This document shows, piece after piece, positions 2,301 to 58,800 of a DNA stretch of 64,000 bases. Positions within the stretch are counted from its first letter, which is position 1; each line of letters starts with the position of its first letter. The stretch spans positions 48,154,757 through 48,218,756 of the forward strand of contig CM059560.1 in assembly GCA_030386875.1 (NCBI GenBank), given 5' to 3'. The notes below the pieces were generated by a model, which was not told the DNA's origin, did no database searches, and was given only the letters and a program-made list of their open reading frames with translations. The stretch is from Morinoia aosen (taxonomy: Eukaryota; Arthropoda; Malacostraca; Amphipoda; Talitridae). Both the position numbers and the translations under genes were made by a program.

Positions 2301-2381
2301 GACACCGCGCCTGAGACGGCGCCCGGTTCAGGTTCCCCGCCCTGGCGCTTCGTGCCTTCGGCCACTCCTGCCCGAATGCTC
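2301..2381 (+). CDS. RAI1/TCF20-like gene, upstream exon (candidate)
   Basis: An 81-bp GC-rich island has a good acceptor (TTCATTCAG just before 2301) and a consensus donor (CTC/GTGAGT at 2381/2382). Both borders are phase 0 and one frame is open across all 27 codons, giving a Pro/Ala/Ser-rich peptide that starts DTAPETAPGSG and ends ATPARML. It joins in frame to the exon at 4450. Low-complexity Pro/Ser-rich sequence before the ePHD finger is usual in RAI1 and TCF20. The exon is inferred from splice signals, composition and phase; no homology is recognisable in the peptide itself. The donor is the first of six tandem copies (see 2376-2549). Confidence 0.6.
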
Positions 2382-2549
2382 GTGAGTCTCACTCATGTTC
2401 TGTTATGCTCGTGAGTCTCACTCATGTTCTGTTATGCTCGTGAGTCTCACTCATGTTCTGTTATGCTCGTGAGTCTCACTCATGTTCTGTTATGCTCGTG
2501 AGTCTCACTCATGTTCTGTTATGCTCGTGAGTCTCACTCATGAACTGTT
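2376..2549. repeat. 29-bp minisatellite carrying a splice donor, 6 copies
   Basis: Six head-to-tail 29-bp units start at 2376, 2405, 2434, 2463, 2492 and 2521. Each begins ATGCTCGTGAGTCTCACTC. The first five are identical and the sixth diverges at its end. Each unit contains the donor-like CTC/GTGAGT of the exon ending at 2381, so the array begins inside the exon and duplicates the exon-intron border. Confidence 0.95.
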
Positions 2550-4449: not shown

Positions 4450-4704
4450 AGTCGCATGGGACGCTGCACTCCGGACCGCTCAGTGGACGGAAGCGGAGCG
4501 CCCACAATCCCAACAGAGGGCGTGGTTGTGGGGCCGGGACCTCAAGTCAACGTGCCCCCGAGCAGCGGCGGCTCAGGCCCCACGGACGTGCAGGGCACCG
4601 AGTGTTGGATTCACGAGGCGTGCCTCGTTTGGCTGCCCGGCGTGCGGGTGGTCAACAGCAGACTCTGTGGACTCGAGGAGGCCGTCACTGAGGCGCAGCA
4701 TTGG
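4450..4704 (+). CDS. RAI1/TCF20-like gene, exon with first half of ePHD finger
   Basis: An 85-codon GC-rich exon, phase 0 at both ends, with acceptor CGCACGCAG/AGTCGC and donor TTGG/GTTAGT. The first part is a Gly/Pro/Ser-rich linker. The last third reads TECWIHEACLVW and then LCGLEEAVTEAQHW. This is the signature start of an extended PHD domain, where Trp-x-His-Glu-x-Cys is followed by a conserved Gly-Leu-x-Glu-Ala helix. The closest families I recall are RAI1 and TCF20, which have WVHEAC and GLQEA at these places. Those proteins are nuclear chromatin-binding regulators, and the ePHD contacts nucleosomes. The exact 5' border is inferred from phase; a border nearer 4560 would keep the domain intact. 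Confidence 0.8.
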
Positions 4705-5451: not shown

Positions 5452-5808
5452 GAGTGCGCCGAGTGTGGGGAGTTGGGCGCGAGTGTTGGCTGTTTGAAGA
5501 ACGGCTGCCGCGCTATCGTTCATTACCCGTGCGCCCTGCGCTCCAAGTGGAGCATGGACAACCAAACCTTCCATTCTCATTGTCCCAAGCACAACCCCTG
5601 CGCCGTTCCCCCATCCGCTCCGCCAGGTGATGCGTCAGCTGCGCAGGAAAGCGTAGCCGTCTCTTCTAATCTCGCTAAAATTAAGTCGTCCGGCAAAGTA
5701 CCGTATGATGCGAAGAAAACGATCGTTTCTAAGAGTTTGGAAGCTCCCAAAGTTGCCACTAAAGGAGCTGCAAAATCTGCCGTTTCTTCTGCAGTTGGCT
5801 TGCGATGA
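5452..5808 (+). CDS. RAI1/TCF20-like gene, terminal exon: ePHD finger and C-terminal tail
   Basis: The acceptor TTGTTGCAG precedes GAG TGC, in phase 0 with the exon ending at 4704. The first 45 codons finish the ePHD zinc finger: ECAECGELGASVGC (C-x2-C and the conserved Gly-Ala-x-x-Gly-Cys), then the C of NGCRA, HYPC, and CPKH as the last C-x2-H pair. This spacing matches RAI1/TCF20/KMT2-type ePHD domains. After the finger come about 75 residues rich in Ser, Ala and Lys that end at TGA 5806-5808. RAI1 and TCF20 end within a few residues of the finger, so this tail is longer. It probably acts in the nucleus as a chromatin-reader module. An alternative donor CAG/GTGATG at 5625 could splice to the island at 6921 (see findings). 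Confidence 0.85.
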   Translation, partial: ECAECGELGASVGCLKNGCRAIVHYPCALRSKWSMDNQTFHSHCPKHNPCAVPPSAPPGDASAAQESVAVSSNLAKIKSSGKVPYDAKKTIVSKSLEAPKVATKGAAKSAVSSAVGLR

Positions 5809-8419
5809 TATGGATTTGTGCTTCACTGCCACTCTGACTCACAAGGAAAATCACCGCTAGATAGCGGATTACTCTAGTCGCTCTTGATTAACTACTGTCT
5901 CTTTTACGTTCTCTCAGCTGTTATTTTCCCATGAATCTCACTCTTGTCCTCATACGCTTCTTATGTTAAAGTTAAGGATATTCCTAATTGTATAGTAGTT
6001 AAACATGAGGTGATTCCCCACGTCTATTGATTCCCTAATGCTATTTGCTCTCTCTTTTTGCATCTATCCTATTTCGACTGCAGCTCATTCTTTTACCCAG
6101 TTGTGATGGCCTTTAGAGCGGTGATTTGACCAAACATGTCAATGTCTTACAAAGCTATATCTATGGTCATTTCTTAGTGGGTATTCTGATCATGATTTTA
6201 ACGTTAGTGTTGGTCTGGATTGACACTTTCAAGCACGGATGGTGCGAGCATACGCGTGTTCATATTCACCTATTACTTCCTCGCTCTATTGTTAGTTTAG
6301 GATTTACTATTTTTACTGACTTCCCAAATAACTTTTAGTACTCAGATGGCCAATATCCCTCCAGTTTGGGGGGAATGACCTGTCACAGAAATTATAGCCG
6401 TTATCTGTGCCATGTAAACTTGCTGCGGTACCCCCACTGCTTCTGCCGTAATGACAACGCACCCTTATCAGCTTTTGGGTGCTGACATCAATGCAGCTTT
6501 GAGTTGAGAGCTGAGTTGGTGACGTTGATGATATTGAATTCTGATTTAGGAGAGACATATTATTAGATTTCGGTCAATTTTTCTACCTAATTCTTCAGCA
6601 AGAAAGTGTGCCCGTGTTGACGACAAAATCCTAGTCTTGTATAAATATATTAATACCTCTGCAGTCGGCTGGACGAGCGACGGAAGAGTGTCTCTGCGAG
6701 GTATAACTAAACAGACCTGAAGAATGCCTGCCGCTATCATGGATTGCTTGATAACTGAACGATAAAGGCGGCTCTGTTGTATAGCTCTCACCATAGTACG
6801 TGCATACTCTCAGTAATTAGGTGTGTAAACAAGTAGTTGATGTATTTTTAACTTGATTCTACGTGAAGATATGGGACATAGATAGTTCCAGATCTTCGTC
6901 TGCTTAGTTTTAGCGCTGCAGGTGCAGCTCACGAGTGTCATGTGGACTTGCAGGGAGAGCAGAGCGTCTCGCGTCTCGGCCGAGTTCGTACAAGTCGCCG
7001 GCCGAGCCGCCTGCTTCCTTTCCTATCGTATCCTCCATAAAACCGAAAATTTACTTAATGACAATAGATATGTAAGTGTTACCGAATTAAGTGTACGTAT
7101 GTAACGTAGGTGGTTTTGGACGCGTGCCCTTCCTGTGCAGTTAATGTAGTTCCAATGTGCCGTATTTAGAGGTACCAAATTGTCGTTGTCAGTGTCGGAC
7201 ATGAAATTTTACGCTTCGTTTATGCATGAGAACCTTTTATCATTTTTATTCTTCACAGTCCATTGTGTCTGCGTCTCAAGGAATTTAATTAAGAAGTTTT
7301 TAATAAATTATTGGAGCATTGATGTGGAAGAACTTTTGGATATAGTTATGCATTAGACGTGGGTAAAACTTTCCTTATAATTTGGTGGAGGAAACTGTAC
7401 CTTCTGCACACGCAGCTGCTGTATCTGATTTTTAGTTGACGATCAAGCAGATCTATAAACTTACGCTGCTGTACTTGTTCTGGCGCTATGCTGTGCAACG
7501 TGAAAATGCGATGCTTTTGTGTGTCTTTTGTCTCTTTTATGTTTTGCTTGTTCAGTCTCACGTTTATTGTATTTTTATTCACTTTCCGTTCCTTTTTCGT
7601 TTCTATCCCCTTGAACACAAAATCATTTATTCTCTTGCGGAGATGGGAATGTTCTTGCTCGTATGTTGCAGACTGTGTGGTCTTCGGTGGCTATGTAGGT
7701 TGAGTGAGCTTCATTTTAGGTATGTTGATCGTGTTTGTTTTCGTTAGCATAGAAGGTTGAATTGGCTTTTGTCAGCAAGCTACGCGCCGCCAAATCAGCA
7801 AAATTTGTTGGAGAAATTATTGTTGGTTTAGTTTAATCCTGAGGCTGGCCTTATTTCTTCTTTCCTCTTTGAGAGGACGAGGTGACGTACTTTCGATGTC
7901 GTGCTCGAATATCTCTTATTTCTTATGTCTATTTCATACCTCTGTTTTTGGTGTCGTTGATAGTCCCTCTTCTCAAAAACCCAATGGGTGGATGCGGTGG
8001 CTAACCCCTTTTTATAATCTTATAAAAAATGAAGAGAAAAGTAGAACGCCACACCTCCAGTTGATTAGAATCGGTTATGTTGACTTCTTGTAGGAAGGTT
8101 GCATGAATCAAAAAGATGAGTCAGACTTAATATGACGTAGGTGTGAGAGCGTGGTGAATTCGTGTGCACTGACATTCTTGTGATAGGGACCACATCTCTA
8201 GTCGCAAATTCGTTTTAGCTTGCTCTTGTCGTGCTGCTGGGTTCACTCGAAATTGACCGCGGAATGTATTTAATACGTCTTTAAATTTACATTGAGGGTA
8301 AATTTGTCGATTGTTTTTTATTTGCTTGTTGTATACTGTTTTTACCGAATTCTGAGAACTGAATTCACTGATTTGCAACATATTTTAGAAGGTTGTAGGG
8401 TTTTCTAATGAATTGTTAT
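5809..8419. other. 3' flank / 3' UTR, with a small GC-rich island
   Basis: AT-rich DNA after the RAI1-like stop. AATAAA at 7302 is one possible poly(A) signal among several AT-rich candidates. The only exon-like stretch is about 6922-7050, which follows a GCGCTGCAG acceptor-like site. No domain is recognisable in the remaining frames. Confidence 0.4.
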
Positions 8420-12789: not shown

Positions 12790-14910
12790 AACATTATCTG
12801 CATTTTTGCCTGCGGCGACCCGCAGAATGCAGAAAGCCATCAACAGTGTAAACAACTGGGCTCTTGAGCATGGCTTTACGTTTTCTACTGAGAAGACTGT
12901 AGGCCTTCATTTCCAAGGCCGCGGCCGCTGTGATCCTCCTTGACTGGTGCTGGGGGAGAGACAGTTTTTGACCGCAGCGTAAAGTTTTTGGGGATGACTG
13001 TGGATGATAAGCTCAACTGGAAACCACACCTGGCTGCTCTCAAGGTTGAGTGTGCTCGGAGAATGAATCTCCTAAAGTGTATATCTGGAGTAACGTGGGG
13101 AGCAGATCGAGTGACGTTGTTGCGACTATATAGAACCTTCATCAGGAGCAAGATAGACTATGGCTGTATAGTATATCAATATGCCAACGAATCCTCACTT
13201 GCTAAGTTGAATCCAGTGCACCATGCAGCTATCAGGCCAAGCACTGGTGCTTTTCGATCCTCACCCTCTTACAGCCTGTGCGTGGAGAGCGGAAAGCCAC
13301 CCCTGTGGCTCCGACGTGTGCAACTAACCTTACAGTACCTAGCCAGGCTGGAGCAAGTCCCTTTGTCTCCTGCATGGGCCAGTGTGCACGCGCCCCTTGG
13401 TCGACACCTGCCTTTTCCACATTTCATACCCGCATCTGTGGATTACCCAGCGATTACAGCCACAATGCAATTGAGACCCATGCGTATACTCCCAGTACTC
13501 TTGGACAACTCTGCGACATGGCGCGTCCCTATAGAAAGTTTTTGCCCAGGATGCCGGATGCCCAAGAAGGAATCCATGCCCGATCACATCCTGAAGGGAA
13601 TTTTCATGGACCATGTACTTGAAAAGCACGCAAACTCCGTGAAGTTGTACACTGACGGATCCAAAACGGGAGACGCAGTGGGATGTGCCGCCGTGTCTGG
13701 GGAAAGGGTCAGTGCAATGAAACTACTCCCAGAGTCATCAATTTTCACAGCAGAATTGTACGGTGTGATGGAGGCACTGAAATTGATTGAGGACTACCCA
13801 TGTGGCTCTTTTACAATTTTTGTTGACTCGAAAAGCGTAATCGAAGCCACGCAAATGTATAATAGTACACACCCACTCATTGCTGAGATTCTCGTAATGT
13901 TAATAAACCTTGCGAGTAGACGTAAGAGTGTCACGTTATGCTGGGTGCCCGGACATGTGGGAGTATCGGGCAATGAGCGAGCTGCGGAGACAAATGGGGA
14001 AACGTTGAACTTGATGGTCCCATTCCGAGACTACTACCCTCGGATAAAGGCTGCAGTGAGAAGTTTGTGGCAACAGGAGTGGGATAGAACAATTAATAAT
14101 AAATTAAGAAGTATTAAACCCACCGTGCGTGAGTGGATATCTTCTAGTTGTCGCCCTCGTCGGATGGAGGTGATACTCTGCCGCCTCCGTATTGGCCATA
14201 CCCGTTTGACGCACGGGCACTTGATGGAGCGACAGCCACGATGTGAGCGGTGCCACGTTCCTCTGACTGTCAAACACTTTCTTGTTGAGTGCCCTCGATA
14301 TGCAGCTGCCAGGAATGTGTGTTTCCCGAGACTGCGAGGTCCTGATGAGGATGTAATGATCGGAATGCTCAGGGAAATTTTACGCTCAACTTTCGATGTA
14401 TCAGCGCTTAAAATGTTCCTAGAAAAGTGTAATCTGATGTCAGAAATTTAACCAGAGAAAGAACAGCGTAAGCAAGGAACTTCTTCACATCTGAGATGTG
14501 GAAGACTAAACTGCAATATGGCCGGGCGCGCTGCGTAGATGCCTCTGGGGGTTTCAGCGTGGGTAAGGCGCCCGGCCATAAATGGGTGGGCAGCTGAAAC
14601 CCCCTATGGGGCCTTTGGCTGCCCGTGCTAACAAAGTGTGCGTGGATCTGTGGATGATCTCTTCAAAGATCAACTGGGGCTCTTATAAGATGACAAAATG
14701 TGGGTGGAAGTTAAAACGGTTTTTGCGATGGATGTTGCTATGTCTCCATAATGGTAATTTGTGATGAACTTTGAATAGAGATTATATAATGTGCTTTTGC
14801 TGAAATGATGTGAATGTTGTATTTTTTGAACTGTGAGACCTACGGCGCGATATAGTACGAATTACTGAAGCGCTAGCAAATCGATGCTAATACTACTACT
14901 ACTATCTGGA
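12790..14910 (+). mobile_element. 5'-truncated jockey/I-superfamily LINE
   Basis: A non-LTR retrotransposon 3' end. It begins inside the reverse-transcriptase region at about 12790 (CCTGCGGCGACCCGC, encoding AATRRMQKAIN) and runs to a TAC-repeat tail at 14888-14907. The RT thumb motif KFLGMTVDDKLNW is followed by an RNase H domain and a C-terminal Cys/His knuckle. The first 48 codons are in another frame from the rest, with the shift near 12938, just before the long frame. The 5' truncation and the TAC tail are typical of target-primed insertion. It is a dead copy of recent to moderate age, since 500 codons remain open. An RNase H domain favours the I/LOA/R1 side of the superfamily over jockey proper. 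Confidence 0.92.
12940..14451 (+). pseudogene. LINE ORF2 C-terminal part: RT thumb, RNase H, CCHC knuckle
   Basis: 503 open codons. Residues about 10-30 carry the RT FLG motif (VKFLGMTVDDKLNW). RNase H spans about 225-355, with YTDGSK (first Asp), AELYG (Glu), FVDSKS (second Asp) and WVPGHVGVSGNERAA. In active enzymes the last motif reads NERAD, so the fourth catalytic Asp appears to be Ala here. Near residue 430 is CERCHVPLTVKHFLVEC, a C-x2-C-x8-H-x4-C knuckle usual at the C-terminus of these elements. The annotated start is an arbitrary codon inside the element. It is not a host gene. Confidence 0.9.
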
Positions 14911-52800: not shown

Positions 52801-55800
52801 ACAGAAGCTAAAGGTCTCAACACCTTCGTGAGCTACTTCTCATTGCCTGCGCTTATATTTCTATCTCTTGCCAAGCTTGACTTCAGGTTAGTTTGTGAAT
52901 TCCTAGGTCTTTTTATTCCCAGTCTACAATGGAATTCTAAATTTAGTCTACTTATTTGTAATGAATGTTGAGTATGTATTTCATTACTTTCTTTGTTATA
53001 AACTTTTGTTATGGGTATTTGAACTGTAAAAAATACTGTGTCTAATTTTTATGCTCATGACAGAAATTGCTTAAATTATACAAGTAATGGAACTCATTTT
53101 GCACAGTTCATTTTACATTGCTTCTTTTAACTATCAGTTTACTTAAATAATTCTTATAGTAATTTTTGCTGCGCACTTACATTGAATCATAATCATCATT
53201 ATTAAAGTTTATTTCTGTCATGTTTTAATACAAAAATTAACCAAAAATCAGACATTATCAAAGCAAGTTTAGTTAGTCACTAGAACAAATATTACATTCT
53301 GCTTGGATAGGTTTTTGAATTTACGTTATGTATGTGCAGCTGTGTGAATTGGCTGTTCCTGTGTGCCATTTGCCTAGCAAAGACTGTTGTCTTTGCCCTG
53401 GTGACCGTCATCACGCTGCTTGTGCACCGCCCTACGGACTTCAGCAAGGCAGGGCTGTATGCCATCTTCTGCACCCAGAGCAATGATTTTGCCTTGGGTT
53501 ATCCAATTGGTAATGCTCTATTACAGAGAGAGAGGGAGATATTTGTATCATCTACAAGGTGTTCTTGGCTTTTGTTCATTGATGGAAATTTTTTGCCTAG
53601 TTTGTTTTTACAAAATCTGAAAGTGTAATTATATATTAATAATTAAGAATTTTGTTATCTCATGTACAAATATTTGCTTTTTTCTGTTTTCTAATTCTTA
53701 AAAGAGCAGTAGTGAAATGGTTTGGGATGGGCAATAATTTCAATTTTGTTTAATATTTCTAGTCATATTGAAGTTTGAAATGAGCCTTTTTTTTGTTAAT
53801 ATTGAGACGCTGTTGTTTTGAATTTTCCATCTCTTATTTATCTAGGTGCCACGTCTTGGTATCCATTTATTATATTTGTGGATGTATGCATGATAGGTCT
53901 TGAAGTAGCTGCTTCAATATTTATGATTAAGCAACTTTAGAATAGCTACTAATTTTCACTACACGCTAATTTTGAACAAACTTGCAAGAATCAGTGTACG
54001 GTTTACTCTGTGATTGAATACTTGTATACAAATGTGCATCCTTGTAAGTGATTGAACTAAAGCAGCATTTATGAGATTGTGAATTTGTAGTTCTAGTTTT
54101 AGATAGTGTGAATAATCATCCTTTCTTAATTTGCTGCGGTTGCCACAAAAGATAACAGTAAAATAAGGTAGGGATGACTTTAAAAGCTCTCTTGTGTTGC
54201 AGTGGAGGCCCTGTATGGAGTGTCTCATCCCAACTTCCCTTCGTACCTCTACTTGCTGGCTCCTATTTCGTTGGTCTTTCTCAATCCACTTGGATTTATA
54301 CTCATGGAAGTAAGTTTGGCATCACTGTAAGCTTTCATTTGACTCCATTTTTTCTGAACTTCGAATTTGAAAGGAAAGATTAGGCTTCTAAACCCTTCTT
54401 TGAGACAATTGTTTAGCCAAATTTTCTAAACCAAATTTGAGCCCTTTTCTGCTTAGCCAAATTGCCCTTTGTACCTGGTCTCCTGAGCCAACAATGTTGT
54501 TGCTGTGCTGCAAAATGTCAGTGTGGGACACAAATAAATGAATTAAAAGTAAAATAGTATTTGAAATAATAAAATTTATTTTCTAACGTCACAAACGCCA
54601 GTATTGCATTTAGTCATGTCAATCTTTGAAGCATGCTAACACTTGCCTGATATACAAATAGCTGTGAAAGTAACCGCACTAGAATGTGTTATTTCTCTTT
54701 TCCTATGGGATATCTTTCTTTACTACATGGGGGTTTTATTTGCTGTATTTATTGTGCTTTCTTGGCACACCCAACACACTCGCATCATTTCCAGTACTTT
54801 GGGTGATTTCTCAGGTTACAGTAGACCAACATCCTGCGTTCTAAATGGAAAGGGTGAATATTTTCTTTGTCTTCCGCAAAATACAAAGCAAACACGCAAA
54901 TCAAAAATTCATACATGGAGACTGCCATCCTTGCAAAGCCCTCCTCGCATTTACAGTTGACCTTAACCTTGAAAATCGTGTCAGTCTTAATAACTGTGTA
55001 CTAATTTAAAAAGTTCTGAGAAATAGGAGGATATCGGGTTTGAATAGTTTAGCATGCAACCCTGTATCTAATTTCTATCACTTCAAGGTACGTAATTTAG
55101 TTGTAATAATTTTTGCATTAACTTGTGTGCTAGGTGGGCAAGAACTTGAAGACAACTCGTAGCAATGCCCGGCCACAAGCGCGCCTGTCCTCCGGGTCTA
55201 CCGATAGCGAAGATGTGAACTGTGCCACAGACTCGACATCAACGACTCCTGCTGCATCTGATCGCCCTGACAGTTCTGTGTTCCCACCTGAGGGCAGAAA
55301 CAAGCAATCAGTGCTCGAAAAGTTTCAGTTTCTTACCAGAACACTCAAAGGCATCATCCTTAATCCCGTGGTTACCATGTCAATTTTGGGTATTTTGTTC
55401 AACACAGTCTTTGGAGGTCGGATGCCGCAGCTCTTTGAAAATACTCTCGAGGTAAGGGTCTCATCAAACTTTTGTTGTAGTGCCTGCTACTGATGTCATG
55501 TGCATGATGTTGATAATATAAGAGTCTTGTGCTTAGTTTTGGCCTTAAGCTGATTTCCCAGAGGATCATTTTCGTGTTTCATAATTTACTAATGATGCTG
55601 TGAATAATTTATTTCAGTTGATTGTAGACGTCCTTTATTTTTCAATAATTCCAGAGATCCTGTTTTGAGTCTTGTTAAAAACTTGGATCATCTTGACTCG
55701 CTCTTTACCATACACACTTCGAATGAATCCTAATTTTTCATAGAAAACATTTTTATCGTACATTCTACAGTGCAGCTAAACAGAACAGCGGTGATGCAAA

Positions 55801-58800
55801 CCCTATTTACATCAGTGCTATGATGTAAACCTTATTTACATCACTGCTGTGACGTAAACCCTATTTACATCACTGCTGTGATGTAAACCCTATTTATATC
55901 CCGGTTGTAAAGATATAGTTTGTATTGCTACCCATGGAGTTTGAGTACATATTGCATTGGACACAGGTGTTGGGCCAGGCGTTCAGTGCGAGTGCACTGT
56001 TCGCACTGGGCGTGCGCATGGTCGGCAAAGTGGCGTCCCTCAGAGGCTCTTCCCTCGTGGTGCCCGGCATCCTCATCACCGTCAAAACGTGAGTTGTGCT
56101 GCCTCACAAACTGCAATAGGAAAGCAATGTTAATTAATTTCTGTTGAGACTTTGACATAGGAAGTCATGATTGAGATCAAATGAAATTTTGAGTTATGCA
56201 GCCTCACAAACTGCAAAAGTAAAGAATGTTGCTTTATTTTTGCACAGACTTTGACAGAAATGCATGAATGAGATCAAATAAAATTGCGAGTTATGCCGCA
56301 TGTCAAACTGCAATAGGAAAGCAACGTTAATTAATTTCTGCAGAGACTTTGACATAGGAAGGCATGAATGAGATCATATCAAATTTCGAGTTATGCAGCA
56401 TGTCTAACTGCAATTGTAAAGCAACATTAATTAGTTTTTGCAGAGTCTTTTGCATAGGAAGGCATGAATGAAATACAATAAAATTTTGAATTACAGTTCA
56501 ATTTTTGATTTGTCCGAGTGCCGAAATTCACTTTACTGGTGAGTCCTATCCAGTTTTTCCGTGATTCATTTATTTTCTATTATTCATTCCATGGGTGAAT
56601 AAATTTTAAGTTTTTTTGCTTCAGTAAAATAAGATGTTTTATTAGGACGAAAGTCTAACCCTCTCTGATCACTTCTAGTTATGCGGCGAGTCATTGTCTA
56701 CACATGGTAACGCTTATACTACCCCCTATCTCTGGTGTTCCTTTGGTTTCTTATTCTTCTCAAGAAAATCACACTTTACCTACAATCAGCGTGCATTTCA
56801 ACAGTAACAGGTGTATTCCCATATATGCTGCTATTTGTGCATGAGATTCTCATACAGAGACCCCTCAGGGGGATACAACTATTGTGTCTATGGGAATTAG
56901 CGCTCCCAGGGGAAAAATGTGAGGGCCCGAGCTGAGAGTTAGGTAGGCCTTCTTTTTGTTGAAATAAAAGTTTTTTTGTTATGTTCAGGACCACCTTTTT
57001 TCGGTTCACTGCTGTCCAGTTTTTCAGCACCTCTCACTTTCTTCTTCAACTTTTATCTTATTTCCTGAACTTCTTTCTCATCTTACTGTTTCTATGCCCC
57101 TTCAGCATAGATTCCTCATTTTCTTATCTCCATACTAAATGGTGCCTTCCTCCTTCCTCTCTTCGATACGCTCTATTTTTGTAGCGGTTAGGGAGGCTTA
57201 AACTAACTTATAATCTATAATCTAATCTCATACAGAGTTGATAAAAAGTCCCAATACCCTTTTTCAATGTGAAATATAAAGTTTCTGATATTTGTCTTCA
57301 CCATACACTCAATGAATTGCTAATGTCTTGCTTTTAGGTCCCAGACAGAATTTCTAGTTAAAACTTTCTGAAGTATTCTAAAAATGAGTTAACGCCGAGC
57401 CGTTGCCGTTATAGGAGCGCAAGAGAAACTGAGTGTCTCTGTTTAAAGTTTCGGAGGAAGACATCAGAGGGCAATAGAAGCTAAAAGGGAGATTTTGAAA
57501 AGTGAAGTTATATTTGGTTTCATGGTAGTTGGTAAATTAATGTGAGGACGATTTTTTGTTTCATTACGCTATCCTACTGTAGATAATTTACCAATTAACT
57601 AAAATCTGGGAACTTTTTCCCACTCTGCATTTTCAATATCGGTTCAAAATCTCTTGACTTCCTTTGTCTACATTTTTTTTCATTAACGCACAACCTAGTT
57701 TTCGGCTTAAATATTTGGTCATTACGTTGTTAGAACTTGAACATTTATGAAACAGCTTCACTGGGCTGATAACAGTTACGTTTGTTCAGGTAATACTTAC
57801 TGTTTTGGCTTAAATATTTGGTCATTACGTTGTTAGAACTTGAACATTTATGAAACAGCTTCACTGGGCTGATAACAGTTACGTTTGTTCAGGTAATACT
57901 TACTGTTTTGGCTTAAATATTTGGTCATTACGTTGTTAGAACTTGAACATTTATGAAACAGCTTCACTGGGCTGATAACAGTTACGTTTGTTCAGGTCCA
58001 GCTGGTCCTGGGAAGTTAGTCCCTAAAAAGTATAAAACCATTGTTAATATGGGAATAAGTTTTCCCAAAGGGAAGACAAGAGATCCCAAGCTGGAGTTTT
58101 GGTAGGCCGCCAAATCTCTAAGCCTAATCTAAATTTTGTGAACTCCTCCCTAGACATTATGGACGAAGCGCGTTCATCTGTGGAGATAGAATAGTTTTTT
58201 TGTTTCTCACTCGTCATATTTTTTATTTTCTGCCGTTTTTTTGCACCTATTGCTACTTTTCTATTGTTTACCTAGTACATCAACTTTTTTCAATCATGGT
58301 GTTTCCACCCAAAAGAAATCCAGTTTAGGAACTCACTGGTGCAAAAATTCCCTGTTCTTTTAATTTCTTACATAATGGTACCTTCCTCTTTCTTCTCTTG
58401 GAACGCGATTTATAGGGTAAGGGAGGCTTGAACTATTGTAGAATCTCGTCTGATCTCTAATTTTATCTTTGGAGTTCTCTAGTCAACAGTTGAATGAAAT
58501 TAGGTATTTAAATGAATAGATATTTGATTTCTATCTCAAAGTGGCGTTTTATGCTAGTTCATTGCCAGAGTGACTGAAGATTCAATAAGCCATTGATGTG
58601 GTCTTTCTTAATGAATTTAAGGTGACTTTCATGCGTTGAGCTTCTATTGTTAAGTGAGCTATGAAGTGTTAGTGAAATCGGAATTTGGGTGGAAGGATTA
58701 CGAGATTGATTGGCAATTGGCGCTGGTGATGCTTCAAGTTGATGTAGCCGTGTATGAAGACTGGTGAAGGGATAGGAAGCATGTCATACAGTCGTTTTAT

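Follow-up and report, generated by a model that had tools for sequence, protein, structure and literature searches.

The window analyzed here is a 64,000-nucleotide stretch of the genome of the amphipod Morinoia aosen (48154757-48218756 of contig CM059560.1, hereafter C5, in a 1.99-Gb assembly of 29 contigs), and it holds exons of a predicted RAI1/TCF20 (SPBP)-like gene together with a short tandem array in which a 5' splice site, or donor, is present six times. Positions are counted within the window, negative coordinates lying upstream of it and coordinate 0 being the base that precedes it; all parts of this gene listed below are on the + strand. A giant exon precedes the window: its open frame of 2405 codons spans -7536 to -322, and the exon closes in phase 0 with the border AAG/GTAAGC at -340. 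Two clear exons lie within the window, both of which begin in phase 0. The exon at 4450-4704 (phase 0-0, donor TGG/GTTAGT) encodes the first half of the PHD portion of an ePHD domain (WIHEACLVW), and that at 5452-5808 encodes the second half of this domain (coding part 5452-5805) and reads on to a stop codon. Since a coding-like frame persists up to this stop (0.330 per codon across 5629-5805) and the sole AATAAA or ATTAAA within 5800-8000 is at 7302, exon 5452-5808 is probably the last coding exon. In the intron after the giant exon, a cassette exon of 81 nucleotides is predicted at 2301-2381, and its last six nucleotides are the first bases of the array (2376-2549).

The kinship of the gene with RAI1 and TCF20, proposed in an earlier reading of this DNA (the sequence-only reading), was supported by sequence comparison. 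When joined, exons 4450-4704 and 5452-5805 matched Pfam zf-HC5HC2H (E = 5.1e-11; 43.1 bits against a cut-off of 29.1). A search of PDB with the ePHD matched five sequences, the best being Jade-1 (E = 5.2e-8) and none being named RAI1 or TCF20. One other ePHD match was found in the genome, in a gene on contig C17 (36% identity) that has a short loop between zinc ligands 2 and 3 and that we take to be KMT2-like; the RAI1/TCF20-like chromatin-reader gene is apparently single-copy. A TCF20 peptide gave a sole match in the genome among those listed at E of 10 or less, namely the CALCKQ...LGDLFGPVY block near the end of the giant exon (43% identity, with a weak E of 0.22), a candidate for the CxxC block that carries zinc ligands 1 and 2 ahead of the PHD in this family. 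More than 100 residues separate its CALC block, at about -570, from the next ligand, in exon 4450-4704. The order C-W-I-H-E-A-C-L-V-W in the latter exon places one tryptophan two residues before ligand 3 and another three residues after ligand 4, a spacing that the consulted sections of PMC3799622 use as a criterion for the SPBP/TCF20-RAI1 family. The same sections describe one gene of this family in insects and a long, possibly regulatory loop that runs from ligand 2 to ligand 3 (PMC3799622).

Two further stretches were observed in and near the giant exon. From about -6042 to -5431 the exon contains a long repeat rich in Ser, Pro, His, Met and Gln, which is open also in other frames and on both strands. 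Directly upstream of the exon, a GC-rich stretch that is open and contains runs of Ala and Gln (...MAGGNPTLWGELNRAMHYNNYQQQQ...; about -8221 to -7949) could represent an N-terminal exon of the RAI1/TCF20-like gene.

The array at 2376-2549 is built of head-to-tail 29-bp units (period 29, 6.0 copies and 98% matches in Tandem Repeats Finder), and the program, a listing of the units and searches with the unit core all agreed with the six copies described in the sequence-only reading. Copies 1-5 are identical, whereas copy 6 differs at two bases (TT to AA after CATG). Each copy contains CTC/GTGAGT, and the six GTGAGT donors lie exactly where they had been placed, at 2382-2387, 2411-2416, 2440-2445, 2469-2474, 2498-2503 and 2527-2532. 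A 20-base core of the unit had six matches in the window at up to three mismatches, compared with a mean of 0.00 in 100 shuffles, and a 19-base core had six exact matches in the whole genome, all within the array. With two mismatches allowed, the 19-base core had nine scattered matches elsewhere in the genome versus 13 for a reversed control pattern. Thus, a dispersed-repeat origin of the unit was unsupported, because the exact core is confined to the array. Diverged unit copies in the flanks were not significant either, since 308 of 1000 shuffles scored as high upstream and 77 of 1000 downstream. Searching the genome with the array DNA returned nine matches, a lower bound given that this search ignores very common words; eight were outside the window, in unrelated arrays with units of 27 bp (seven, on C5) and 24 bp (one, on C14). 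The 24-bp array occupies the whole 5 kb examined there, and some of its units contain GCTCGTGAGTCTC.

GTRAGT occurs at nine sites on the + strand between -339 and 4449 (-104, 188, 2259 and the six array donors), and from the acceptor of the predicted exon to 4449 the array donors are the only ones. Among 49 non-overlapping tandem arrays with units of 10-120 bp in 184 kb, three contained GTRAGT on either strand, and only the array at 2376-2549 did so on the + strand. Most likely, the array is a minisatellite of recent origin that has multiplied a genuine donor; the identity of five of its copies points to youth more than to long conservation.

The sequence-only reading had also placed the end of an exon at 2381, and we consider this exon, which would encode DTAPETAPGSGSPPWRFVPSATPARML, to be probably real. 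We compared all open phase-0 AG...GT segments of 30-300 nucleotides in the intron after the giant exon (157 candidates), with approximate splice-site matrices and a coding model for which the giant exon of this very gene had served as training data. With a summed score of 20.1, segment 2301-2381 ranked first, and its coding score per codon was the second highest. By summed score, the five candidates that followed (12.0 down to 3.3) overlapped it, and the best unrelated one reached 2.2. Its acceptor scored 3.1, compared with 1.4 and 1.0 for the acceptors at 4450 and 5452, and its donor 2.6, compared with 0.5 for that of exon 4450-4704. The segment has a GC content of 0.72, compared with 0.40 and 0.37 for the intron on its two sides, and the GC content jumps at the acceptor, from 0.44 (2276-2300) to 0.80 (2301-2325). 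As the summed score was not decisive by itself when set against 12617 control pseudo-exons from 341 kb x strand of nearby DNA, a three-score control was added, in which six pseudo-exons had a comparable acceptor and donor and none also had a comparable coding score, the thresholds (acceptor 3.0, donor 2.5, coding 14.0) having been set just under the candidate's values after these had been seen. The 40 best control pseudo-exons came from four stretches: a GC-rich tandem array (27), a long open frame (8), a proline-rich repeat (4) and the sequence just upstream of the giant exon (1).

On the other hand, several results weighed against the exon. The summed score of 20.1 was reached by 116 of the 12617 controls. 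Codon usage was no better than expected from composition, since 2632 of 20000 composition-preserving shuffles scored as high; an open frame was kept in 14205 of the 20000, and the exon's own frame (-6.105 per codon) was slightly outscored by an antisense frame (-6.035). The exonic side of the donor (CTC) is poor, and the donor score of 2.6 compares with 7.0 for the donor of the giant exon. A branch-point-like A lies 58 nucleotides from the exon; it belongs to a 33-bp repeat of 2.3 copies (2185-2260) that duplicates a putative TTAAC/CTAAC branch point, with adenines 91 and 58 nucleotides from the exon. In addition, a frame-neutral exon could simply be skipped, with the frame kept. Because the codon pattern is matched by composition, the case for the exon rests on the splice sites, the phase and the GC rise rather than on codons.

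The consequences of each donor for the frame follow from the sequence. The predicted exon is 81 nucleotides long, open and in phase 0 at both ends, so that either inclusion or skipping would keep the frame. Donor 1 is the only in-frame productive one and yields the full ePHD. The statement that donors 2-6 shift the frame or meet TGA holds, with one refinement: an in-frame TGA at 2412-2414, formed by donor 2 itself (TCG TGA GT), would be read with donors 3-6 (extensions of 58, 87, 116 and 145 nucleotides), whereas donor 2 (29 nucleotides) misses this TGA, shifts the frame and reaches a stop at 5495 in exon 5452-5808. Even the extension of donor 4, 87 nucleotides and thus a multiple of three, includes the TGA. 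The TGA precedes the junctions made by donors 3-6 by 25, 54, 83 and 112 nucleotides, respectively, and the 4704/5452 junction lies further 3'. Under the exon-junction rule for mRNA decay, on which insects may rely less, this downstream junction would be expected to make the predicted products of donors 3-6 subject to decay, whereas the product of donor 2 might escape decay if 5452-5808 is the last exon. As extra units fall behind the TGA at 2412, no copy number would make an additional donor productive.

The six donors are equivalent, as had been claimed, in that they are identical from -6 to +16. Local RNA structure, in 80-nucleotide windows and in a fold of the whole region, singled out none of them: the mean probability of being unpaired was 0.44, 0.42, 0.40, 0.40, 0.40 and 0.34 for donors 1-6 in the former and 0.25-0.42 in the latter, and the median at 32 other GTRAGT sites was 0.35. 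The segment 2301-2580 folds below its shuffles (z = -3.62), and within each unit the donor can be drawn into a 7-bp hairpin of -6.6 kcal/mol. In the controls, 100 of 2000 permuted units folded as well as the unit, and 19 of 200 six-copy arrays of shuffled units folded as well as the array. We therefore rejected a special sequestration of the donors in RNA, as permuted units fold as well and accessibility is near the GTRAGT median.

These observations on the array, donors, frames and gene kinship are compatible with several explanations. The one we favor, to which we give about an even chance, is that a minisatellite with a 29-bp unit grew over the 5' splice site of a small exon that leaves the frame unchanged and thereby created competing, mostly non-productive donors; here we infer use of the exon, competition among donors and an effect on protein dose. 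U1 small nuclear ribonucleoprotein (snRNP) would pair equally with all six donors and could not discriminate among them, given the shared sequence from -6 to +16, so that position and bound proteins would have to decide. Use of donor 1, or skipping of the exon, would yield full-length protein, and use of donors 2-6 would yield frameshifted or prematurely stopped mRNA lacking the PHD portion of the ePHD. The array would thus probably divert some transcripts to non-productive splicing, more of them with more copies, and its origin would most likely be neutral expansion rather than an evolved switch. According to the consulted part of PMC5585400, SRSF1 favors intron-proximal and hnRNP A1 intron-distal donors, and the productive donor 1 is the most intron-distal of the six. 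The exon might also be real and yet rely on donor 1 in nearly all transcripts, owing for instance to an enhancer within the GC-rich exon or to first-come co-transcriptional recognition, leaving the five other copies as inert intron. Selection would indeed favor such use, as donor 1 alone is productive, but the identity of the donors and the predicted pairing (0.34-0.44 across donors) give donor 1 no distinction, and SRSF1 can favor the intron-proximal donors (PMC5585400, in part), which are the non-productive ones here. We think this somewhat unlikely.

Less likely still is that the exon does not exist and that the array is an intronic minisatellite of the ordinary kind, in which a donor-like word occurs by chance. 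Skipping would keep the frame, the codon usage is not above composition, and a GTRAGT word on either strand in three of 49 arrays (184 kb) is not very rare; however, the segment stood first of 157 by a wide margin, none of the 12617 controls equaled it on all three scores, and GC rises sharply at the acceptor at 2301. We regard as quite improbable that the array works as a natural dosage knob, in which the count of identical frame-breaking donors sets the productive share of RAI1-like transcripts. Since none of the extra donors is productive, the amount of protein would depend on copy number, and, if such a knob existed, variation in repeat number within populations would alter the level of a chromatin reader. 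Human RAI1 is dosage-sensitive, as stated in the consulted part of PMC12296005. That the array is a selected regulatory device, one that uses unproductive splicing or RNA structure to set the productive protein dose, appears very improbable: all five extra donors are non-productive and the region folds below its shuffles, but the accessibility of the donors is ordinary, the shuffled-unit controls make the folding signal weak, and the five identical copies would suggest youth over long conservation.

The closest precedent for the favored explanation, expansion of a minisatellite over a donor, is human IFI6, a direct parallel in which minisatellite units carry repeated donors. As in a minisatellite of the IFI6 type, each tandem unit of the array carries a 5' splice site consensus on the sense strand, and its first unit would overlap the end of the predicted exon. 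The IFI6 unit is reportedly 12 bp, so that alternative donors keep the frame, whereas the array belongs to another lineage, has a 29-bp unit, and every donor beyond the first either shifts the frame or runs into a stop. Donor use has been reported in RNA for IFI6, where two downstream repeat units serve as donors and give three mRNA species (PMC4526556, in the part consulted), whereas for the array it is predicted from sequence. Besides IFI6, no tandem-donor minisatellite was recognized in the consulted portions of the literature searched. Competing donors, of which one gives full-length and the other frameshifted protein, are also described for intron 4 of DOK7 in the available part of PMC5585400; these are two non-identical donors 11 nucleotides apart with no tandem array, and the intron-proximal one is productive, in contrast to the most distal one here. 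Within the SPBP/TCF20-RAI1 family, a small predicted exon with a minisatellite donor in the loop between ligands 2 and 3 is a feature of the present gene, and the main text of PMC3799622 never mentions an exon, intron or splice. Six identical, evenly spaced donors behind one exon amount to a natural competition experiment on 5' splice site choice; as their flanking sequence hardly differs, junction counts would reveal the effect of position alone.

Elsewhere in the window, an open frame at 55134-55493 looks similar to a segment of a GPR155-like transporter, and it had no Pfam match at 0.01. At 57698-57997, a 103-bp unit is present in 2.9 copies that are 99% alike, each with a branch-point-like and an acceptor-like stretch (CTGATAAC...TTTGTTCAG). 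The sequence after the last copy gave no clear exon and resembles, by eye, a dispersed repeat near 1200 and 5180. Finally, Pfam identified an RNase H domain (E = 6.9e-11) in the open frame at 12934-14451, and we take this frame to be part of a non-LTR retroelement.
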